From a virus, in IMG/VR virus record IMGVR_UViG_3300005095_000122, positions 1 to 62,732 of that record: 62,732 nucleotides of DNA. One strand, written 5' to 3'. The notes under the pieces were generated by a model. It had not been told where the DNA came from. It made no database searches and saw only the letters and a list, made by a program, of their open reading frames with translations. Shown here piece after piece: positions 14,301 to 62,732 of the stretch (position 1 is its first letter; each line of letters begins with the position of its first letter). Made by a program: the position numbers and the translations under genes.

Positions 14301-15047
14301 ATGGCAGAATTACAACCCATGCCCATATTAACACGCCGTCCAGTTTATGTGCTGTTTTCAGGCGGTCGTGATTCGACCGTAGCTTTGCATTGGGCGAAGA
14401 CGCAGTTCCCATTAGTGAAAGCAATATACGTTTCTTTGAACGATGACTGGTCTTCGCTAATAGAACACGTTCGGCGAGTAGCAGAAACCTTTTCGATTGA
14501 CCTCGAGATCAAGCAAGGTCCAAATCTTTATGATATTTTCGCAGCCGTCGGCCCGAAGCTCACTCCGGCAGCGATGGTGTGCAAAAAAGCAATGCTGGAA
14601 ACGGCACTAAGTGACATCCCAAAAGGTTCAATTTTGGTTTGGGGAAGTACCAGAAAACAGGCAAGCGTGATGGCGCGGATGTCCCAACCCATCCGCCGGG
14701 AGGGGGATTATATCTATATACGTCCTTTGCTTTTTAAAGGGTTTCCCTCGACGCGTTACTATATACGCGCGAATCGCCTTCCCATTTGGGAGGGGTATCG
14801 CCAGGGCTTGAACCGGACCGCCTGCCGTCTATGTCCGGGACAACGTCCTTTTTATTATGCCTTTTTGAGGCGACACCATCCAGATCTTTGGGAGCGACTT
14901 TTACGGTTTGAGCAGCAGTATGGGATTCGTCCGTGGCAGGCCCCTAGAGGGACGGCCTCTTTTACGGATTTGGCCAATTTAGCGGAGGTGTACCGATGTA
15001 CGCAGGGTGAAGTTTCCCGGGATCTCCGGCCAAGCAGGCAATCTTAA
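14301..15047 (+). CDS. PP-loop ATPase of PAPS reductase family
   Basis: A 248-aa adenine-nucleotide alpha hydrolase. The PP-loop is SGGRDS (20-25). A WGSTRKQAS stretch, the IRPLLF block and a C-terminal TACRLCPG two-cysteine motif follow, as in the wide PAPS reductase/DndC/3'-phosphoadenosine family. Members activate substrates by adenylation in sulfur assimilation, DNA phosphorothioation, tRNA thiolation and related chemistry. A lone copy in a phage is unlikely to run sulfate assimilation. It stands two genes upstream of the ubiquitin-like cassette; PP-loop enzymes and Ubl/E1 pairs cooperate in known sulfur-transfer pathways, so a link is possible but inferred. Confidence 0.82.
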   Translation: MAELQPMPILTRRPVYVLFSGGRDSTVALHWAKTQFPLVKAIYVSLNDDWSSLIEHVRRVAETFSIDLEIKQGPNLYDIFAAVGPKLTPAAMVCKKAMLETALSDIPKGSILVWGSTRKQASVMARMSQPIRREGDYIYIRPLLFKGFPSTRYYIRANRLPIWEGYRQGLNRTACRLCPGQRPFYYAFLRRHHPDLWERLLRFEQQYGIRPWQAPRGTASFTDLANLAEVYRCTQGEVSRDLRPSRQS

Positions 15048-15532: not shown

Positions 15533-15970
15533 ATGAGTCAAGAGAATCGTCAGCAGCAGTTACCCATCGTTTTTCCTGACGGGCAGGAGACACAATTGGA
15601 AGAAGTGACTCCTGAGCGTATAACCGAGATCGTACGCTCGCGTCTGGGATCGGCCAGGTTTATGGTGTACGATCAAGAAGGCAATCCCTTAGCTCCAGAG
15701 GATTTGGGAAGTCCGACGGTACGCCGCCTTTATGTAGAGGAGTATAATGAAGCCAAAGCTCCGATTCGCGAAATCCGGGACGAGAAGCGAAATGAGGTTT
15801 GGTACATAGACACCAAGACCGGTGAAGAAGTAAACCCATTTGAGGATGAGGAGACTTTTGTGTGTCCGTCATGTGGTGAGGAATATTCTGAAAACAGCCT
15901 GCCAGATAGGTGTGCTGTTTGTGGAGAGCCGTTGGCGGAATTGGACGACCATGATGATTTGATTTGGTAG
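15533..15970 (+). CDS. Ubiquitin-like beta-grasp protein with C-terminal zinc ribbon
   Basis: 145 aa. Residues 41-100 show the strand-strand-helix-strand-strand order of a small beta-grasp fold: a YDQEGNPL hairpin, an SPTVRRLYVEEY helix, then IREI and EVWYIDT strands. From memory this resembles the Ubl of PRTRC-type plasmid systems (protein C, Prok_Ub). Residues 109-132 form a zinc ribbon, CPSC (C111, C114) and CAVC (C127, C130). The chain ends DDLIW with no terminal diglycine, so conjugation would need processing or another mechanism. Its identity rests partly on the next three genes (E1, E2, JAMM). GGGAGG precedes ATG 15533. Confidence 0.6.
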   Translation: MSQENRQQQLPIVFPDGQETQLEEVTPERITEIVRSRLGSARFMVYDQEGNPLAPEDLGSPTVRRLYVEEYNEAKAPIREIRDEKRNEVWYIDTKTGEEVNPFEDEETFVCPSCGEEYSENSLPDRCAVCGEPLAELDDHDDLIW

Positions 15971-15981
15971 GGAGTGAGCAG

Positions 15982-16617
15982 ATGAGCGATCTCTATTTGC
16001 GACAAAAGGAACTAAATCTAAAGGTCCCCGAAGGCGTGATGGTGGTGGGGTGTGGTGGTGTTGGTTCATGGGTAGGATTGTTCTCCGCATTGGCAGGGGT
16101 CGAGAATATTTTGTTGGTAGATCCAGACGTGATTGAGGAACATAATCTAAATCGTACCCCTTTTACTCAGACCCAGGTCGGTCAAAACAAGGCCGAAGCC
16201 TTGGGATTCTTAATAAAAGAGCGGCGGCCGGGGGTACAGCTGGGCGTGGTGCCGCTACGTGTGGAGGATTTGGTTTTGATCGCTCCAGCCGAAGCTTGGG
16301 CGCAGATCCCAGTTGTTTTTGATTGTCGTGACACCAGCGAGCCGCTGCCTGATTTTCTCAAGGGGAAAACGCCAATTGTGGGGGGATATAACGGCAATTC
16401 GATAACACTCCACACATGGCCGGACCTTCGACCAACACCTTTGTGGGGTGCGGTAGGGCAAGGTTACAATACCCCGTCTTGGGTAGCCCCACCGACCCTT
16501 TTGGCTTCTCTATTGATTTTTGCAACGTTCTCTTATGATTTGCCGCGACAGACTCGCATTTCGACGTTGACGATGCAGGATGTTTTTGATCGGGTGATGG
16601 CAAAGCGTTGGCAATAG
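15982..16617 (+). CDS. E1/ThiF-like adenylating enzyme
   Basis: A 211-aa Rossmann-fold ThiF/MoeB/E1 domain expected to adenylate the C-terminus of a ubiquitin-like protein. The nucleotide loop is VVGCGGVGS (21-29), LLVDPDVIE carries the ATP-binding aspartate (D47 or D49), NLNR (55-58) is the conserved asparagine-arginine pair and K70 the conserved lysine. FDCRDTSE (113-120) corresponds to the family VDxxD strand. Only two cysteines exist (C24, C115), neither in the usual crossover-loop position of a catalytic cysteine, and there are no zinc CxxC pairs. ATG 15982 is preferred over TTG 15964, which lies before the GGGAG ribosome site. Confidence 0.85.
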   Translation: MSDLYLRQKELNLKVPEGVMVVGCGGVGSWVGLFSALAGVENILLVDPDVIEEHNLNRTPFTQTQVGQNKAEALGFLIKERRPGVQLGVVPLRVEDLVLIAPAEAWAQIPVVFDCRDTSEPLPDFLKGKTPIVGGYNGNSITLHTWPDLRPTPLWGAVGQGYNTPSWVAPPTLLASLLIFATFSYDLPRQTRISTLTMQDVFDRVMAKRWQ

Positions 16618-43725: not shown

Positions 43726-44472
43726 ATGCTAAATCCAGACATTTGGCAACCTAATATGTCCGTTCCAGCAGGCGAATTTATACGTCCGACAACAGATAAT
43801 GGGTTTGTTTATTATGCACTAACGGGAGGTTTAACAGGTTCGACAGAACCTTCTTGGCCGACGGCAAACGGTCAGTCTGTCATTGATAATGAAGTGACTT
43901 GGATAGCGATGAGAAACAGAGCATCTTATACGATGCTCCAGCCAGCTTTGGATTATCTAAAGAACAACGGCAACCTAGTGACAGTTTGCTTTAAAAACCC
44001 GACTAATTATTATCAAGCTTGTAATCCAGATGAATGGCAAGCTTCAACAACCTACAACGTAGGCGATGTAGTTAGACCGACAACTAGAAATGGATTTGTA
44101 TATGTTTGCACAGTAGCAGGAACCACGGGTTCGTCAGAGCCTTCTTGGCCCACTAACGCAGGTGATACGATTACGGATAATGAGATTACCTGGGAAGCGG
44201 TCGAGAATTTTTCCTTGTGTGCAGTTGAAATGACTTCGGCAGACTATGCTATTGAGGTATCAGAAGACGGTGGTTTGAAAATTAAAACAGCGACTAAGAC
44301 GGATATTCTAGTTTACCGAGAAGGTGAAGGCAATTTCGGAGTCATTCTTGACACGATAAACAAAAATATCCTTTTTGTGACTTTACCAAACACGCCTCAG
44401 AATTTTATTGAAGGGGCCTTGGCACGTATAACAGAGATTATTTACGAGATAAACTTGCCAGGAGTTTGTTAG
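43726..44472 (+). CDS. Tail protein with two aromatic carbohydrate-binding-like repeats
   Basis: 248 aa. Two repeats of about 45 residues (17-62 and 115-160) share the pattern RPTT-NGFVY...TGS-EPSWPT...DNE-TW. The regular tryptophans and WQASTTYNVGDVV resemble chitin/cellulose-binding modules of the CBM5/12 type. They may bind host surface glycan. The remaining C-terminus is beta-rich. Confidence 0.65.
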   Translation: MLNPDIWQPNMSVPAGEFIRPTTDNGFVYYALTGGLTGSTEPSWPTANGQSVIDNEVTWIAMRNRASYTMLQPALDYLKNNGNLVTVCFKNPTNYYQACNPDEWQASTTYNVGDVVRPTTRNGFVYVCTVAGTTGSSEPSWPTNAGDTITDNEITWEAVENFSLCAVEMTSADYAIEVSEDGGLKIKTATKTDILVYREGEGNFGVILDTINKNILFVTLPNTPQNFIEGALARITEIIYEINLPGVC

Positions 44473-47705: not shown

Positions 47706-47734
47706 TTGACACCGACCTAAGCCGATGATAGGAT
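47706..47734 (+). promoter_or_regulatory. Sigma70-type promoter, copy 1
   Basis: TTGACA (47706-47711) and TAGGAT (47729-47734) are separated by 17 bases. The whole 29-base unit, its spacer and several flanking bases are identical to copies at 59643 and 59916. It drives the gene at 47766 and the downstream PEP-CTERM-like gene. A CCTA...TAGG pair spans the spacer and -10 and could be an operator half-site pair. Confidence 0.85.
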
Positions 47735-47765
47735 TAGACAAGAAAATTAAAATGAGGTAGTCGAG

Positions 47766-48122
47766 ATGGTCATTCTGTTAGAGAAGACGGCTATATTTCC
47801 CACTAGGCCCTTTGATGTGTCAGTGGTGGGGCCGTATAGCATGGGGAAGAGGCAAGAGGCCAGGATCGAGTTGGTAGAGAATGAAGGGACGGTCACACTG
47901 GTCGAAGTAAGGTGGTCGCAGTGTGTGGATAAAGAAAAGGCCCTTCGATTTCTTCAAGCTTTATTTGTGAGGCTAGTGGCGCGGGTGAAGCAGGCGGAAG
48001 AAAGCCGGCAAGCCATAATAATGAAAGTATTTGTACAGCAAGCCGTGGAACGGTATTTTGAAAGCGGTTTAGAAGAGGTGGTCATAACCTTAGACGAATG
48101 TCCAGTGGTGGAGGTTCTTTAG
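47766..48122 (+). CDS. Hypothetical 118-aa probable early protein
   Basis: An alpha/beta protein with strands TVTLVEVRW and EEVVITLDECPVVEVL and a central helix. No family recognised. It is directly behind promoter copy 1 and shares the leader GAGGTAGTCGAGATG with the gene behind promoter copy 3 (59972), suggesting coregulation as early genes. Confidence 0.6.
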   Translation: MVILLEKTAIFPTRPFDVSVVGPYSMGKRQEARIELVENEGTVTLVEVRWSQCVDKEKALRFLQALFVRLVARVKQAEESRQAIIMKVFVQQAVERYFESGLEEVVITLDECPVVEVL

Positions 48123-48206
48123 GTGTTTCCGTTACCGGCAACAGTTTTATTGGTGATTTCGGCAATAATAGCACTAATTTTACTCATAGGGAGGACGAGA
48201 AAATGA
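48123..48206 (+). CDS. 27-aa hydrophobic peptide with PEP-CTERM-like signature
   Basis: A GTG codon immediately after the previous stop, 8 bases downstream of GGAGG (48110-48114), opens a 27-codon frame whose stop overlaps the next start (ATGA). The peptide is PLPAT, then about 16 hydrophobic residues, then GRTRK. That is the PEP-CTERM layout (Pro motif, transmembrane helix, basic cluster) without a protein body. It might be a coupling leader, a small membrane peptide or an exosortase decoy; the last is speculation. Confidence 0.55.
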   Translation: MFPLPATVLLVISAIIALILLIGRTRK

Positions 48207-48883
48207 GGGCAGCGACATTTGGAGGATTTGTAAAGTTTTCGGTGATTTGGGCAGTTTTTATGTTGTTGATATTTGGTGCGTTTGTTTCTTTGGCGCGAGC
48301 CGACGTAATTGATTTTGAAGGATTGGGTGTTGAGGGAGACACGTTGCACTCCGTTAGTGGAGTAAGTTTTGAGAACGCCATCTTGGCGACCGAACTAAGT
48401 GGCAGAATCTATGCATTTTTTTATGGTATTTCTACCAGAGGATGGGATGATGCGGTGGTGGATGGGACCGTACCAGTTGGAGGGACCATGCTAACGGATA
48501 AATGGGGGGATCACACTCCCTATCCTTTCTTAATAGGCAAACAAGTAAGCTGGACTTATGAGAAGCCGGTTACAAGCACATCGTTCTATTTAATTGATGT
48601 GGACGCACATGAGCGGTATGTGGTCGAGGCGATAACCGTGTCAGGTGAGGTGCTCGAAAAGGTAATAGCAGATGGAGACCCAGGAACCGGAGATGGTAAG
48701 GCGGTAAAGATGGAGTTTATCTCTTCGATGGACCCAATTAAGTCGGTCAAAATAACACCGCCTTCTTGGAGTGGCTGGGCGGTAGATCACATAGAGTTTG
48801 AGCCCGTACCGGCTCCAGCCACGGTGGTTTTGATGTTGGCGGGAGTGGTGGCCGTGACGGCTTACCGAAAGGTGTCGCGATAG
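48203..48883 (+). CDS. Exported PEP-CTERM-like protein
   Basis: 226 aa. N-terminal signal peptide (hydrophobic 12-30, likely cut after ARA near 33). A beta-rich extracellular domain follows, beginning VIDFEGLG, a start common among PEP-CTERM proteins. The C-terminus has VPAPAT (202-207), a hydrophobic helix and a basic RKVSR end, matching the PEP-CTERM sorting signal with VPAP in place of VPEP. Exosortase in the host would process it. ATG 48203 has GGAGGAC upstream; longer in-frame starts lack ribosome sites. Followed by a terminator. Confidence 0.75.
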   Translation: MRAATFGGFVKFSVIWAVFMLLIFGAFVSLARADVIDFEGLGVEGDTLHSVSGVSFENAILATELSGRIYAFFYGISTRGWDDAVVDGTVPVGGTMLTDKWGDHTPYPFLIGKQVSWTYEKPVTSTSFYLIDVDAHERYVVEAITVSGEVLEKVIADGDPGTGDGKAVKMEFISSMDPIKSVKITPPSWSGWAVDHIEFEPVPAPATVVLMLAGVVAVTAYRKVSR

Positions 48884-48889
48884 GCACAG

Positions 48890-48918
48890 GCAGGTGGGGA
48901 AATCCCCACCTGCTTTTT
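48890..48918 (+). terminator. Intrinsic terminator after PEP-CTERM-like gene
   Basis: A perfect 10-bp GC-rich stem (48890-48899 with 48904-48913), AAAT loop and a TTTTT run follow the stop codon by 6 bases. It isolates the PEP-CTERM-like unit from the lysin gene. Confidence 0.9.
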
Positions 48919-53291: not shown

Positions 53292-54173
53292 ATGTCAGAT
53301 TTTTTTACCTTAGAGCGTCGGTTAGCAGAGGGGGTTTGGTACGACGCCCCGGATTTGGTGCGTCAGGAGATCCGCCGATTTGAGTATCAATACATTTTTA
53401 GAGGAAAAAGGCTTCGTCTAATAGAGCGTCAGTTACGGAATGGGGCATTGGCAACAGTTGATCTAGCTCCATATTTAAGCGGTCCGACGGCCCCGGGATT
53501 GGACGGCTTGATCGTACGACGCCTTTTGCGAGCACGAGGTGATGGTCTTCCAAAGGAGTATTTGGAGCTTTTCCGAGAGCTGTATCAGCAGATAGTGCGT
53601 TATGCGGCAGCAGTGGCCGATCGACACGGACTTCATGGAGCAATACGGGAAGAGTTTGAGGCTTCTGTGCCGTCTCTAGCCATAAGATTGATAGATCGGT
53701 ACGATCCAACGGGCACCGTGTCGTTTTTTCAGTATGTAGGCGCTTCTTTAACATATCTGCGGGGACGCTCAGGCTATGCAATCAACAACGGTCTTTCTGG
53801 AGGACGGCGCCGTTTCTACCGCCAACTTTCAGAGTTTTTGTCAGGACAACAGTTGGATCAAACGGCCCAGGCATTGTATCAAGCACCGTTAAGTTTGGAA
53901 AAAGAACTAGATAATGGTTTATCGGTGAAGGATTTGGTGGCAGAGGAAAGTTCAAATCACGAGGAAAAAGTTTTAAATAAGCGAACGGTAAGCAAGTTAC
54001 TAAAAGGTCTCTCACATGAGGAAGCATTATTGCTTTTGCGAAGGTTTGGTTTGCCACCGTTTCGTGAGCACACGTTGCGCCAAATAGGTGTGTTGGAGGG
54101 CATATCGGAAGAAGCAGTTCGTTTGCGAGTAAATAAGCTTTTGCAGAAGTTGCGTAGGAAGGCGTCAGATTGA
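53292..54173 (+). CDS. Sigma-70-like RNA polymerase sigma factor
   Basis: 293 aa. Residues about 120-165 look like sigma region 2 (IRLIDRYDPTGTVSFFQYVG). The C-terminus (238-290) is a region 4 helix-turn-helix (LSHEEALLLLRRFGLPP, then LRQIGVLEGISEEAVRLRV). It should guide host RNA polymerase to phage middle or late promoters. Region 1.1 is absent and region 3 appears short. It closes the nucleotide operon. Confidence 0.75.
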   Translation: MSDFFTLERRLAEGVWYDAPDLVRQEIRRFEYQYIFRGKRLRLIERQLRNGALATVDLAPYLSGPTAPGLDGLIVRRLLRARGDGLPKEYLELFRELYQQIVRYAAAVADRHGLHGAIREEFEASVPSLAIRLIDRYDPTGTVSFFQYVGASLTYLRGRSGYAINNGLSGGRRRFYRQLSEFLSGQQLDQTAQALYQAPLSLEKELDNGLSVKDLVAEESSNHEEKVLNKRTVSKLLKGLSHEEALLLLRRFGLPPFREHTLRQIGVLEGISEEAVRLRVNKLLQKLRRKASD

Positions 54174-54230
54174 TGGAAACGGAGTCGCGAAAAACGTTGG
54201 AGTATTACAACCACTCCCATCTAACCAACC

Positions 54231-54310
54231 ACCCATTTACCACAGCCCTCAGTGCATTTAGCACTCTAGGCATTGGTAAATGGGTACCTGGTAAATGGGT
54301 ACCAATGCCT
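54231..54310. repeat. GGTAAATGGGT repeats and long hairpin
   Basis: The 11-mer GGTAAATGGGT occurs at 54275-54285 and 54290-54300 in direct orientation and as its complement at 54231-54241. Around the two direct copies, AGGCATTGGTA (54268-54278) pairs with TACCAATGCCT (54300-54310) to give an 11-bp stem with a 21-base loop. A small GTGC/GCAC hairpin lies at 54252-54264. No T-run follows, so this is not a terminator. It could be an origin iteron set or an operator. Confidence 0.75.
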
Positions 54311-54448
54311 GGAAAACAAAACTTGGACAAAACTAATTGGGTAGAGGTTTAAAATGTTTGGCAGTATAACTTGGTCGGAAGTATTTTTGGTTTACAAAGT
54401 GTTTGGTAGTTGGGTATTTGGTTCGGTCTCGGAGGTACGTGAACACAG

Positions 54449-54470
54449 CCCCGCCCACACCCCCAACCCC
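54449..54470 (-). other. G-quadruplex motif (minus strand)
   Basis: The + strand carries four C-runs of 4, 3, 5 and 4 bases separated by 1, 3 and 2 bases. The complementary strand therefore holds four G-runs with very short loops, a canonical quadruplex motif predicted to be stable. It stands about 120 bases before the clamp gene ribosome site, in the non-coding region. Confidence 0.75.
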
Positions 54471-54587
54471 ACCGCTCAGCGTCTCGCGCACGGCTCCCTC
54501 AGAGCGTTTCGCCACGCGCAAGGGGTCAGGGTAGGATCGGCGGAGAAAACGTCTCAAAACGAAAATATTCGCGGAGGTTAGTAACCC

Positions 54588-55616
54588 ATGAAGGCATTGT
54601 TAAAAGTACTATCCCAACAAGATCCGATCAGCCCACCTTTACTGCATTGCGACGGCCAACAATTAATCGCAACCAATCATCGCGTTTGGGCCTACCAAGA
54701 CACTTCTTACTTCCCTTTTCCCATCCCAGCCTTTACTACTCCCACTGGCCTCAAGCTCCTTAAAGTTTTGGAAACCTTCCGCCACGTCTCCCCCACCGTC
54801 TCCGTCACCGGCGACACGATCGCAATTGACTTTGACGGCACGCATCTGACTTTTCCCACCATCGCCGAGTTCCCACACTTCCCCGACAACCCCAGTTTTG
54901 ACATCCCCCAATTCGGTCTCTTTTTGTCAACTCTTACTTATCTACCCAAGGCCAAATCCATCCTTTGGCCCGAACACGTCTCCGGCCTTCGATACGAGCA
55001 GGGCCATCTCTATTACCTGGACTTGGCCCTGCTCTATACGATCACCGATCACGATTTCACCTTGCCGGATTTCGATTTCACCATCCCCAACTCCTACCGA
55101 CCCTTTTTATTTCCTCACTTCCATTCTGCGCGCGTATCGCCGCAAGCCGTCGAGCTTTACGGCGATGACTCGAAGCTCCAGTTCTACCACTATCAGGACG
55201 AAACCAGCTTCTTTGCAGAAGAAGAGCGTCAGGTCCTTTCCCAACTGGCCGAAGGCGAGGTAAAAAGATTAAACTTTCAACCCCAAAGGGGTTTTGCTCA
55301 GCGATTCCGAATTTTGGCGCAAAACCCCACGCCGATACGAATAGAAAACGGTCGGTTTACCATAGATCAATCGAATTGGCGGGAAGTGGTCGGCACGGTA
55401 CCGCAGGACTTTCCTTCATTGACAACTTATGCACCGGCCAAGCTTTTAGATTACTATTTCCACCAGTGCTCAAATCACCATTTGACTCCGACAGCTCTTT
55501 TGGCCGATCACGTACAAACCAAGGCAGCCGGTCAGATGATAATTGCTTTTCTATCCGGGGCGTTGGAAACGCAATTGGAAGAACCCGAAGACGAGGCCGA
55601 AACGGAGGAAAACTAA
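54588..55616 (+). CDS. Probable DNA polymerase sliding clamp
   Basis: 342 aa beta-rich protein directly upstream of the polymerase. It shows a repeated beta-alpha-beta pattern suited to a clamp: N-terminal LLKVLSQQ, the middle IPQFGLFLSTL, and a third part with WREVVGTVPQDFPS, resembling the DnaN pattern before its third domain. The acidic C-terminal tail (EEPEDEAETEEN) is unusual for a clamp. The genome has a clamp loader, so a clamp is expected; no other candidate was seen. Codon use here is cleaner and more C-rich than in the head genes. Confidence 0.55.
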   Translation: MKALLKVLSQQDPISPPLLHCDGQQLIATNHRVWAYQDTSYFPFPIPAFTTPTGLKLLKVLETFRHVSPTVSVTGDTIAIDFDGTHLTFPTIAEFPHFPDNPSFDIPQFGLFLSTLTYLPKAKSILWPEHVSGLRYEQGHLYYLDLALLYTITDHDFTLPDFDFTIPNSYRPFLFPHFHSARVSPQAVELYGDDSKLQFYHYQDETSFFAEEERQVLSQLAEGEVKRLNFQPQRGFAQRFRILAQNPTPIRIENGRFTIDQSNWREVVGTVPQDFPSLTTYAPAKLLDYYFHQCSNHHLTPTALLADHVQTKAAGQMIIAFLSGALETQLEEPEDEAETEEN

Positions 55617-58376
55617 ATGTACGACTCGGCTTTGCAACACTCACCGAATCTGCTCTTCAAAGACCCCACCGAGAACTGCGTCCAGTGCCGACTCTCACAG
55701 CGCGACAACTCTCACCCGGTACCGTTTGAACTTCCTCCGGACCCCACAGCCCCTTATCTGCTGGCCGTGGGCCTCGGCCCGGGGCGGGAGGAAGTGCAAC
55801 GAGGACGACCTTTTATCGGGCCGTCAGGACAACTGCTTCGTACTACCTTGACAACAACTTGGGCACGTGTGGCGCGCATTCCTCTTCTTACGGCGACAAA
55901 CCAGGTAACCCATTTGGTGGGGTATGCAAATTCCATTCGGTGCCAGCCTCCGAAACACCAGCCAACTCCGCAGGATCTCCGCGCGTGCACTCCAGTTTTG
56001 CAGGAACTTCTTCGACAGTATCCTCCACGCGCCATCTTGGCGCTAGGAGAGTATGCGATCAAAGGACTTTTTCCAAAGGCTCCACAAAAGTTTTGGTCGG
56101 CAAAGATTTCTTCACTCCGGTCGCGCATCATTCCACTTCACATCGGCGACCGAACCATTCCCGTGGTGCCCACCTACCATCCGAGCTACATTCTCCGCTC
56201 GGGCGAAAACAAATCGTTCTTTGCACAAGATCTCGAATTAGCTTTTCAAGTCTTTTTGCAACCACCGGAACTGCCGAAGCCGCCAAAGGCCCGGGTCGAG
56301 CACGTTACACTAACCCGTTTGTTAGAGTTATTGCAACAACACAAGCCCAGAGCCGTTGCCTTTGACTTTGAAACCGTCGGCCTAGATCCGCACAGTCCGC
56401 AATCACAGCTTTATACCGTGGCAATTGCGTATTATCACCAGGGACAATTGCTATCTTTTGCTGCACCAATTGCAAATCAACCGGACGCAGCTTGTTTTAC
56501 TCAAATCTTTACCTATTTGATAGACAACCAAACCACTTTAATAGCTCACAACCTGGCTTTTGAATTAAGATGGTTGCTTTATACAATAGCCAATCAAGTA
56601 AATCCGGGCCGACGCGACCAGCTAGCGAGACGCATTTTGGACAAAATTAGCCAACAATCTCATATCTTTGAAGATACACAGCTTTTGGAGTACATCCGTT
56701 GCGAGTTCGCACCCCTCTCTCTAAAAGCATTAGGTACGGTATATTTTGGATTGGAAGATTGGTCCGTAGATGTTGCGAATGTAGCACGACTACCTCTTAA
56801 CAAAGTTTTAACGTATAACGCTTTAGACTCAGCCTATACGCTAGCCCTTTACCAAGCCCAATTGGCATTTTTGCAAAATGATTCCAGATTAAACAAGTCT
56901 CTAGACAGGGTTTATCGCCAGATACTCATTCCGGCTACGTTGCGTTTCCAAGCATTGGTTTTCCCGGGGGTCCCGTTTAACCCGCAAACTTCGGCAGAAT
57001 TGGAGGACAAGTTCTCAGCCGAATTGCAAGCGTCCATGCGCAAGATACGTCTTCATTTGCCGGAAGATCTCAAATCCATGAATCTAAACTCAGTCCACCA
57101 ACTTAGAAATTATTTTTATGTGTTGAAGCGCTATCCTCCGATAGTGCAGCGCGGAAGGCATTTTGAAGTAGATCCCAAGGCTTCACCTTTTGAGGCGTCC
57201 ACGGCAGTTGAAGCGTTGAAGATCCTGGCCGAGAAGCATAAAGATCCGGTAGCAAAACACCTTTTGGCGTATCGCAAGGCCCAAAAGATCGTCTCGACGT
57301 ACATCCGCGGCCTGGCGAAGCACGTGACAAAGACAACCGTTCCGCAGATCCCATTTGCTCTTCGTCCCTTTGGGAATCTTTCGACAACCGTAACCGGTCG
57401 CACTTCGTTCAACTCGCCAAACATTCAAAACTTTCCCAAACGCGAGCTTCCCGAGATCCGAAACGTGATCGAGGCCCCACCGGGTCATCTCATCGCAGCA
57501 TTTGACCAAGGCCAAATCGAGGCCCGCTTTTTCGCAATCGTTTCAGGAGACCCCAATTACCTCAAAGCCCTACATGAGGGCTACGACATCCACGCCTTTT
57601 TCGCAAAAATGGCTTATGGTGTAACTTATGAGGGGGCAGATCCCCAAGAGGATGCGTATGTGTGTCGCTTGATTCGCGTACGTTCCTTGGAAGTTCTCGA
57701 CAAGAAGACCTTTAAAAAATACCGATCAACGGCCAAAAACGGTTTCACTTTTCCATGTTTGTACGGAGCAGGCGTTGAAACCATCGCCACAGGTCTTTCA
57801 AAGATAGGTCGCCAGGTGTCCCCCGATCGTGTGCGGCTAATGCAGCAAGAGCTTTGGTCGAGGTTTCCCCTTCTCCAGCAGTTTGTCCACTACGTACATT
57901 CGTTTTATGAGGAAAACCATTACCTAGTTTCGTTATATCACCGCTACCGCCGCCCGCCTATTTCCTACACGCAGCGGGTCAACTTTATCATTCAGTCCTC
58001 CGCTTCGGATACCGTATTGGTGACCGGTCTTCTTTTGTCACTTTTCTATTTCTGGCTCTTTTTCATTCACGATGACAATTCGTTTATCCTTCCCGAGGAT
58101 GATTTGTTAGAGCGGCGGTTAAACAACATAGCAGCGCTTATGATCGCCTATCCCTGGACCTACTTGGCCCAGGCCCCCTCCGAGCTGTTTAAAGCCTATA
58201 TTCCTTTTGAGATAGAGATTTCCTTGGGAAGGCGTTGGGGAGAGTTGGAGGAAGTAAAAACAATTTCCGCAGATGATTTGGGCTTAAACACTTTGGAAGA
58301 AGCGTTGAACGCGTTGCCGGAGATGATCGCAGAGGCCCAGGAACTATCTCCCAACTACGACTTTTTGCAGATTTGA
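55617..58376 (+). CDS. Family 4 UDG-like - 3'-5' exonuclease - family A DNA polymerase fusion
   Basis: 919 aa in three parts. Residues 15-215 resemble an iron-sulfur family 4 uracil-DNA glycosylase: cysteines C21, C24, C109 and C124, GLGPGREEVQRGRPFIG, and HPSYIL (188-193). Residues about 240-420 are the DEDD exonuclease (DFET at 250-253, AHNLAFE, YNALDSAYT). Residues about 430-919 are a Pol I-type polymerase with motif A FDQGQIEAR (D630), motif B RSTAKNGFTFPCLYG (R703, K707) and motif C HDD (818-820). Motif A and C deviate from DYSQIE and HDE. From memory, SPO1-like phages also have UDG-like domains on their polymerases. Confidence 0.9.
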   Translation: MYDSALQHSPNLLFKDPTENCVQCRLSQRDNSHPVPFELPPDPTAPYLLAVGLGPGREEVQRGRPFIGPSGQLLRTTLTTTWARVARIPLLTATNQVTHLVGYANSIRCQPPKHQPTPQDLRACTPVLQELLRQYPPRAILALGEYAIKGLFPKAPQKFWSAKISSLRSRIIPLHIGDRTIPVVPTYHPSYILRSGENKSFFAQDLELAFQVFLQPPELPKPPKARVEHVTLTRLLELLQQHKPRAVAFDFETVGLDPHSPQSQLYTVAIAYYHQGQLLSFAAPIANQPDAACFTQIFTYLIDNQTTLIAHNLAFELRWLLYTIANQVNPGRRDQLARRILDKISQQSHIFEDTQLLEYIRCEFAPLSLKALGTVYFGLEDWSVDVANVARLPLNKVLTYNALDSAYTLALYQAQLAFLQNDSRLNKSLDRVYRQILIPATLRFQALVFPGVPFNPQTSAELEDKFSAELQASMRKIRLHLPEDLKSMNLNSVHQLRNYFYVLKRYPPIVQRGRHFEVDPKASPFEASTAVEALKILAEKHKDPVAKHLLAYRKAQKIVSTYIRGLAKHVTKTTVPQIPFALRPFGNLSTTVTGRTSFNSPNIQNFPKRELPEIRNVIEAPPGHLIAAFDQGQIEARFFAIVSGDPNYLKALHEGYDIHAFFAKMAYGVTYEGADPQEDAYVCRLIRVRSLEVLDKKTFKKYRSTAKNGFTFPCLYGAGVETIATGLSKIGRQVSPDRVRLMQQELWSRFPLLQQFVHYVHSFYEENHYLVSLYHRYRRPPISYTQRVNFIIQSSASDTVLVTGLLLSLFYFWLFFIHDDNSFILPEDDLLERRLNNIAALMIAYPWTYLAQAPSELFKAYIPFEIEISLGRRWGELEEVKTISADDLGLNTLEEALNALPEMIAEAQELSPNYDFLQI

Positions 58377-59642: not shown

Positions 59643-59671
59643 TTGACACCGACCTAAGCCGATGATAGGAT
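59643..59671 (+). promoter_or_regulatory. Sigma70-type promoter, copy 2
   Basis: TTGACA (59643-59648), a 17-base spacer and TAGGAT (59666-59671), identical including the spacer to copies 1 and 3. It drives the 36-aa membrane peptide at 59702, about 30 bases away. Confidence 0.85.
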
Positions 59672-59701
59672 TAGAGACAAGAAACAGTTAGGGGGCATCA
59701 G

Positions 59702-59812
59702 ATGAGATGGATAGTTTATTTACCGGCAGCTTTAGTGGTGTATATGATAGGAGATTTTGTGTGGAGTTTCATAAAGTATTTAGAAGTTTTCCAGGCGTTG
59801 GTGAAACACTAA
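59702..59812 (+). CDS. 36-aa membrane peptide
   Basis: ATG 59702 follows AGGGGGC and promoter copy 2. The peptide has one hydrophobic span (residues 3-22) and an amphipathic end, stopping at 59812. It has its own promoter and a terminator after it, an isolated transcription unit that supports a real small regulatory or inhibitory peptide, perhaps superinfection exclusion or host-membrane targeting. No homology claimed. Confidence 0.6.
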   Translation: MRWIVYLPAALVVYMIGDFVWSFIKYLEVFQALVKH

Positions 59813-59871: not shown

Positions 59872-59898
59872 CCCCGGCCCCAAAGGCCGGGGTTTTTT
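59872..59898 (+). terminator. Intrinsic terminator after 36-aa peptide gene
   Basis: An 8-bp all-GC stem (59872-59879 with 59885-59892), CCAAA loop and a run of six T. It ends the small unit that began at promoter copy 2, 18 bases before promoter copy 3. Confidence 0.92.
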
Positions 59899-59915: not shown

Positions 59916-59944
59916 TTGACACCGACCTAAGCCGATGATAGGAT
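59916..59944 (+). promoter_or_regulatory. Sigma70-type promoter, copy 3
   Basis: TTGACA (59916-59921), the same 17-base spacer and TAGGAT (59939-59944). The gene behind it at 59972 shares the leader GAGGTAGTCGAGATG with the gene behind copy 1. Placed immediately after a terminator. Confidence 0.87.
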
Positions 59945-59971
59945 TAGAACAAAACAAGGGAGGTAGTCGAG

Positions 59972-60481
59972 ATGAAAGAGCTCATGAGTGTTTACCAAGT
60001 CCTAGAAAGACAGGTCGAAGAGGGTAAGTGGACTCCCGCTGAGCTCGAAGAGTTCGCTCAGCGGGTTTTGACGTTGGCAAAAAAGGCGCGGCAGCAGAAC
60101 GGCAGCTTCGCCTTTTTTGTTTCTGTGGGGCCGGTTGACCCACGTAAAGGCAAGCCCTACGTAGCCCGCCTTTATCTCGACACATCGGGAAAACTTTGTC
60201 GGGAGTTCTTTGAACTAGACTATACATGGGGCAAGAAGTCAGTACACATGAAGGGTAGTTTCGAGGCTCGCTCAGGTGACATTATCGAGATCCGTTGGGG
60301 CGGGTCGTGGCGGAACGACTATCGCTATTGGTATTGGGTGTCGTCAGATGGAGACCTCATTGAAGTTGCAGATATAGGACACGCAGAGGAAAAGGCAGCG
60401 GTCCTCGATTATCTCAAGACTGGGGATGAGACAGTTTTGACTATGAAGAACGTTGAAGAACGCGTGCGGCGGATTGACTAA
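59972..60481 (+). CDS. Hypothetical 169-aa probable early protein
   Basis: Basic-acidic alpha/beta protein, helical at the N-terminus (1-45) and beta-rich with many W, Y and R residues in the middle (100-125), a surface fit for nucleic-acid or protein contact. It sits alone between promoter copy 3 and a terminator, the typical setting of an early host-takeover gene. Not recognised. Confidence 0.65.
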   Translation: MKELMSVYQVLERQVEEGKWTPAELEEFAQRVLTLAKKARQQNGSFAFFVSVGPVDPRKGKPYVARLYLDTSGKLCREFFELDYTWGKKSVHMKGSFEARSGDIIEIRWGGSWRNDYRYWYWVSSDGDLIEVADIGHAEEKAAVLDYLKTGDETVLTMKNVEERVRRID

Positions 60482-60487
60482 GCTGCC

Positions 60488-60518
60488 AGGGGCCTTCGGC
60501 TGGAGGCCCCTAATTTTT
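60488..60518 (+). terminator. Intrinsic terminator after 59972 gene
   Basis: A 7-bp GC-rich stem (60488-60494 with 60505-60511), a 10-base loop, and AA followed by five T. It lies 7 bases after the stop codon and ends the single-gene unit that began at promoter copy 3. Confidence 0.85.
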
Positions 60519-62324: not shown

Positions 62325-62732
62325 ATGATTCAGGTAAAAACCTATTCGGAAGAGGACTTAGACCGTATTGAGCGACAATTAAATAGGCGGAATGCGTATT
62401 TAGTGCCCGAAGTAGAGGTATTTGAGCCGGCGCAAGGCGACCATGCCATTAGAATTATTCCGCCGCGGGCAGATGATGATTTGGCAAGTGCGTTTTATTT
62501 GACGATACGTACTCACTACCTAGGACAAAACTATCTTTGTCCTAGGTCGTTGGATAATTCCCAAACTTGTCCGGTTTGTGACAAGTTTTTTGAGCTGCGG
62601 GGACAGGGGCAGCCCCAGGAAGTTTTGCGTCAGATCTCCGGTGTAAAACGAAATCTGGTTTGGGTATGGGTGATTTCGCTCCAGCCAGGAGTGCCGTCAG
62701 AGCCGGTGTTGCGTCTCTATCCCATGCCCGAC
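62325..62732 (+). CDS. gp32-like ssDNA-binding protein, N-terminal part (continues at 2)
   Basis: First 136 residues of the 372-aa protein that continues at the window start. After a short N-terminal helix, the OB-like core contains a zinc-binding site with spacing H-x7-C-x9-C-x2-C (THYLGQNYLCPRS...TCPVC), closely recalling T4 gp32. It protects single-stranded DNA and would organise the phage replisome. The ATG has AGGGGGT 5 bases upstream (62313-62319). Confidence 0.85.
   Translation, partial: MIQVKTYSEEDLDRIERQLNRRNAYLVPEVEVFEPAQGDHAIRIIPPRADDDLASAFYLTIRTHYLGQNYLCPRSLDNSQTCPVCDKFFELRGQGQPQEVLRQISGVKRNLVWVWVISLQPGVPSEPVLRLYPMPD
62642..62732. repeat. Right copy of 91-bp terminal redundancy
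   Basis: Identical to bases 1-91; see the left copy. Removing one copy gives a 62,641-bp circular map. Confidence 0.95.

Follow-up and report, generated by a model that had tools for sequence, protein, structure and literature searches.

Does a phage make a protein for the exosortase of its host? Sorting by exosortase has been recognised in the genomes of bacteria, and what part it plays when phages infect seems not to have been studied. The question is raised by a gene in a viral DNA of 62,732 nt, the whole stretch analysed here, which we call the window. From the sequence it had been predicted that the product of this gene, P0001, bears a signal peptide and a PEP-CTERM-like tail by which a host exosortase would sort it to the surface or extracellular matrix.

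The phage genome

The first and last 91 bases of the window (nt 1–91 and 62642–62732) are identical and form an exact direct terminal repeat. Such a repeat commonly marks an assembly as complete, and the window thus probably represents the whole genome of the phage, about 62.64 kb long. It encodes the proteins of a tailed phage, among them a terminase, a portal, a DnaB-like helicase, a UvsX-like recombinase and an SbcCD-like protein, together with a ThyX-like protein, dCMP deaminase, a sigma factor, DNA polymerase, tape measure and tail proteins. The terminase, portal, tape measure and DNA polymerase bear out that P0001 is virus-encoded. No integrase was seen among the window proteins scanned, and profile searches with TIGR02602 and PF09721 found no exosortase in the window.

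Between the terminase and portal genes lie a PAPS-reductase/ATP-pyrophosphatase-like protein (nt 14301–15047) and a ThiF-like adenylyltransferase (nt 15964–16617). The GC skew goes negative at nt 54001–58000, in the DNA polymerase region, though the genes there share the strand of the rest. In the tail region the product of nt 43726–44472 matches the carbohydrate-binding model CBM_5_12 at 26.4 bits, against a cut-off of 26.2, and is possibly a surface-binding tail protein.

Organization of the P0001 locus

The features of the locus, all on the plus strand, are as follows.

47706..47738, +, promoter-like element of 33 bp, TTGACA-17-TAGGAT plus 4 bp, an exact threefold repeat
47766..48122, +, first gene of the unit, 118-aa protein of no family, no signal peptide by reading
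48123..48206, +, 27-aa ORF with GTG start, MFPLPATVLLVISAIIALILLIGRTRK, a bare PEP/VPLPA-CTERM-like tail
48203..48883, +, P0001, predicted secreted protein of 226 aa with a variant PEP-CTERM-like tail, ATG to TAG
48203..48301, +, predicted signal peptide of P0001, residues 1–33, ending A-R-A (by reading)
48302..48805, +, ectodomain of P0001, residues 34–201, with relatives L118 and L197
48806..48880, +, C-terminal tail of P0001, VPAPATVVLMLAGVVAVTAYRKVSR, residues 202–226 (sequence and tail models)
48888..48915, +, terminator-like hairpin of 12 pairs, then T-rich, directly 3′ of the P0001 gene
48938..50011, +, protein with DUF1353, Glyco_hydro_108 and PG_binding_3, a probable endolysin, outside the unit

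The TTGACA-17-TAGGAT sequence itself spans nt 47706–47734. Exact copies of the 33-bp element, spacer included, occur at nt 59643–59675 and 59916–59948; with up to 3 mismatches allowed the genome holds 3 matches, and 100 shuffles hold none. Consensus promoter-like sites number 17 against 18.1 expected. Since such sites are no commoner than chance, the case for a promoter rests on the exact threefold repeat. The hairpin has a folding energy of −27.3 kcal/mol (z −5.5), and none of 200 shuffles was as good. The repeated promoter element and the strong terminator hairpin indicate that the P0001 gene probably ends a self-contained unit, apart from the endolysin transcript. The view of P0001 as a lone ORF is thereby corrected: its gene closes a promoter-terminator unit in which a second product, a bare tail-like peptide, is also encoded. 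At the level of sequence the extra genes are enclosed by their own promoter and terminator, as in a moron. The copy at nt 59643 precedes a sole gene, a hydrophobic 36-aa ORF (nt 59702–59812, MRWIVYLPAALVVYMIGDFVWSFIKYLEVFQALVKH), with a hairpin near nt 59872. The copy at nt 59916 precedes a 169-aa ORF (nt 59972–60481), with a terminator-like hairpin near nt 60488.

The 27-aa ORF directly follows the TAG of the 118-aa gene, in frame and without a gap, and its end overlaps the start of P0001 as ATGA. A GGAGG at nt 48110–48114 lies 8 nt ahead of its GTG. The FPLPAT at the start of the peptide resembles the VPLPA-CTERM tail of TIGR03370; the peptide differs in that it stays under the cut-off (12 bits vs 25.35) and has no protein attached. 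As a second bare tail, a 27-aa VPEPAT frame after a TAG, VPEPATNIFMGTALLLGSFFRRGRARV, was considered on the exosortase contig of the Desulfohalobiaceae genome G001 (L124:1489-1572), and was rejected for want of a clear ribosome site. The surroundings of that frame look decayed.

Architecture of P0001

A GGAGG also stands 8 nt upstream of the ATG at nt 48203. By reading, the N-terminus of P0001 has a basic n-region, a hydrophobic core and a cleavage-like site between A-R-A and D. The C-terminus runs VPAPAT, about 17 mostly hydrophobic residues and YRKVSR, so that a predicted transmembrane helix is followed by a basic cluster. The ORF, the signal peptide and the VPAPAT-hydrophobic-basic tail were thus read as originally predicted. 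A hydropathy filter of 26,187 ORFs from 117 sequences left P0001 as one of 5 ORFs of at least 90 aa with a clean C-terminal helix and basic end. The AlphaFold model, made from the single sequence, is poor (mean pLDDT 43) and places helices at residues 4–31 and 207–225 at low confidence; no relative was found in the PDB. At 0.488, the GC content of the P0001 gene hardly differs from that of the window (0.474), giving no compositional sign of recent transfer.

A u-spanin is a lysis protein with a lipobox and a C-terminal helix. This identity was rejected for P0001, which has no cysteine in its 226 residues and hence no lipobox.

In the EpsH model, as the excerpt of Haft 2006 (PMC1569441) presents it, a substrate is exported by its signal peptide, retained by a C-terminal helix and recognised by its motif at the periplasmic face; the same excerpt describes a near-invariant Pro-Glu-Pro motif in the PEP-CTERM sorting domain. 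P0001 resembles the substrates of that excerpt in its signal peptide, its homology-less domain, its motif-helix-basic order and its kin L118 and L197. It differs in having P-A-P (residues 203–205) in place of the near-invariant motif, in scores below the cut-offs, in its phage origin and in the phage-repeated promoter element.

Tail models and chance controls

Scanning P0001 with PEP-CTERM HMMs had been proposed as a check. The tail was matched, with every score under the curated cut-off: PF07589 gave 14.4 bits against 20.7 (E 0.041 over 24,736 models) and TIGR02595 13.9 bits against 16, while NF038120 matched residues 192–222 at E 5.4e-4. For any single model, it is unlikely that these scores arose by chance. 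An exact search for VPAPAT plus four hydrophobic residues on viral contigs returned 41 stretches, 26 of them within 30 aa of the frame end; read individually, none of the 26 was a helix-plus-basic tail on a signal-peptide protein.

With an HMM of 37 Desulfobacterota tails, P0001 came 1st (E 1.3e-4) and the 27-aa ORF 2nd (E 0.046) among 26,187 C-termini of 117 sequences, a partly circular result, as the training tails were gathered largely with a profile containing P0001; L125–L136 and L137 were omitted. To repair the circularity, a P0001-independent HMM was built from 32 canonical tails, and the outcome was weaker: P0001 scored 6.9 bits (E 7.4, rank 4), which is not significant. When the independent HMM was limited to the 174 tail-anchor-like ORFs, P0001 and the 27-aa ORF were again 1st and 2nd. 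An ordinary tail anchor in a host without exosortase had been named as the outcome contrary to the prediction. What was found is a P0001 tail that outranks the other tail-anchor-like viral ORFs, and an exosortase in the sole genome-resolved relative of the tail module, G001.

Cellular relatives of P0001

At E≤0.001, the only protein that a single-sequence P0001 query matched among 395 Desulfobacterota genomes is L118, of genome G258. L118 has a signal-peptide-like start and the tail VPAPASFLLLFSGLIGLLRFTRR, beyond which the protein extends a little further. A BLAST alignment of P0001 and L118 without their signals and tails scores 31.6 bits, and the best of 300 shuffles reaches 22.3. The class of G001, represented by 297 genomes, gave 3 matches to the query at E≤0.01. 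The best is L197 of genome G480 (E 7.3e-5), which has a signal-like start and the end TPIPGAVWLLGGGLVGLLGLRRRGVV; the other two, L198 and L199, are not PEP-CTERM-like and bear no such tail. The best cellular relatives of P0001, as found in Desulfobacterota by single-sequence query, are by their sequences secreted proteins with variant PEP-CTERM tails. The description of P0001 as PEP-CTERM-like stands as to the order of its elements and the kinship of its ectodomain with cellular PEP-CTERM-type proteins, and not as to its P-A-P motif and its scores, which lie below the curated cut-offs.

The NCBIfam pattern of L197 is like that of P0001, with NF038120 at 6.3e-4 and no TIGR02595 at E≤0.1. Genome G480 carries an exosortase (2.1e-61) and has no PF07589 match. 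Thus a cellular tail of this kind, that of the sub-threshold L197, also escapes the curated models where the enzyme is present. In G258 no exosortase was found despite nine PEP-CTERM matches, the completeness of this genome not being stated, and 17 genomes of its class gave no additional P0001 relatives. Exosortase was present in 9 of 10 genomes hand-chosen from the 46 with P0001/L118-profile matches. No P0001 relatives were found in phage records, in IMG/VR or, by peptide patterns, in GTDB contigs.

Tail module and host

The 1231-aa tail protein of the phage matches mostly phages of Gamma- and Betaproteobacteria, at about 30–35%, and IMG/VR records at 41–42%. A counterpart of 40% identity lies in a prophage of the Desulfohalobiaceae MAG G001, which has an exosortase (2e-63) and five PEP-CTERM proteins that exceed the cut-off. 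Of 148 Desulfobacterota genomes, 49 contain PEP-CTERM matches above the cut-off; with so high a background, the link of G001 to the host of this phage is only suggestive. The tail-module relatives L113 and L115 are viral fragments without hosts, and a regex scan found no PEP-like tail in either. Scans of IMG/VR with the terminase and the endolysin found nothing.

The tail gene is also carried, at 41%, by a contig binned as Nanohalarchaeota (L116), which is probably a misbinned phage fragment. In the Desulfohalobiaceae prophage the last tail gene is followed by three ORFs that are lipoprotein-like by reading (L117:11327-13705), showing that exported proteins recur at the post-tail slot.

PEP-CTERM proteins of other viral contigs

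A search of viral sequences for the exact pattern VPEPATLLLLG yielded 12 contigs, each with an ORF bearing such a C-terminal tail. The TIGR02595 check took in L197 and 9 of these 12 proteins, and all nine viral proteins passed the cut-off. Phage use of the PEP-CTERM pathway would thus not be unique to the present phage. Among 20 neighbouring proteins scanned from 8 of the 12 contigs were a terminase (L129), RDF and SSB (L134), and SSB and exonuclease (L132); some of the 12 contigs may represent host DNA that flanks a prophage. The canonical proteins (L127, L128, L129, L132, L134 and others) resemble P0001 in being virus-borne and secreted with PEP-CTERM tails. They differ in that their VPEPAT tails exceed the cut-off and in their ectodomains, which by reading are unlike that of P0001.

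In the titles and abstract openings of the literature pairing PEP-CTERM with phage or virus, no phage-encoded exosortase substrate was found; the excerpts of PMC12642866 and PMC4886054 deal with host PEP-CTERM genes.

Alternative explanations

P0001 could be a type I membrane protein of the ordinary kind: its signal peptide would be cleaved, its periplasmic domain would be tethered to the inner membrane by a plain C-terminal anchor, and no exosortase would ever cut it. Its role might then be, for example, to keep DNA from entering or to adjust lysis alongside the endolysin. The sub-cut-off tail scores, the P-A-P in place of P-E-P, the short basic end and the probable endolysin gene next downstream all fit this reading, to which we give an appreciable minority weight. 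However, a strong terminator separates the P0001 gene from the endolysin, and the motif, helix and basic end stand in PEP-CTERM order. The best whole-sequence cellular relatives are exosortase-type proteins, and even the P0001-independent HMM places P0001 first among the 174 viral ORFs that resemble tail anchors.

The 27-aa ORF might also be the active part, an N-out/C-in bare tail that occupies the host exosortase and inhibits or retunes sorting, with P0001 as the favoured cargo. Its model score is weak (12 against 25.35 for TIGR03370), it has no known homologue, its translation is a prediction, and FPLPAT may arise by chance in a short membrane peptide. These points make the reading very improbable, even though its GGAGG spacing is ideal, two neighbouring genes that overlap within one transcription unit both have tail-like C-termini, and the two rank 1 and 2 both of the 26,187 C-termini (partly circular) and of the 174 ORFs. 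A two-part takeover, in which the free 27-aa tail competes for or retunes the exosortase, host surface proteins are held back and P0001 is displayed as cargo, is improbable as well. That read-through at the TAG at nt 48120 gives the 118-aa protein the FPLPAT tail is scarcely credible: the 27-aa frame does continue past this TAG in the same frame without a gap, but it has a start and Shine-Dalgarno of its own, and reading the 118-aa protein reveals no signal peptide. Stop usage is normal in 69 ORFs (32 TAA, 20 TAG and 17 TGA), and stop recoding or read-through was accordingly set aside.

Proposed mechanism

P0001 is a phage-borne, variant PEP-CTERM-like protein and probably a substrate of the host exosortase; together with the tail-like peptide, it suggests that the phage uses the surface-sorting pathway of its host. 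The best explanation, which we hold with somewhat better than even confidence, is that the locus is a moron-like accessory unit and that the phage infects a Gram-negative bacterium whose exosortase would sort P0001 so as to alter the cell surface. Against an exosortase substrate we counted the P-A-P motif, the missed cut-offs, the non-significant independent HMM and the exosortase not found in G258, and also that L198 and L199 are not PEP-CTERM-like and that no close viral relative of P0001 was found.

The gene, its architecture, the tail resemblance, the ectodomain kinship and the unit boundaries are read from sequence; from them we infer export, cleavage, host and purpose in the following model. 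Transcription from the promoter at nt 47706 would cover the genes of the 118-aa protein, of the tail-like membrane peptide of 27 aa and of P0001, and would be halted by the terminator ahead of the endolysin. P0001 would be exported by Sec and its signal peptide removed, the C-terminal helix holding it in the inner membrane with VPAPAT at the periplasmic face. The host exosortase would then cut it and pass it to the surface or exopolysaccharide. Displayed P0001 would most likely change the surface of the infected cell, for example by receptor masking or added matrix, which could serve to block further phages or to keep cells together.

In the excerpt of PMC7067206, moron loci affect phage immunity, motility and biofilm, and from this we infer the purpose of the unit; by such analogy P0001 may act in surface modification or superinfection exclusion. 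The unit is like the morons of that excerpt in consisting of extra genes, separately transcribed by prediction, among phage modules, and differs in that its phage has no recognised integrase or repressor. Overlapping exclusion genes in another phage, in the excerpt of PMC9936078, offer an analogy only.

If real, the 27-aa tail-only peptide would offer a natural means of probing recognition by exosortase. If a phage product is indeed exported through the exosortase pathway, it would form a bridge between biofilm surface sorting and superinfection or control of the host.
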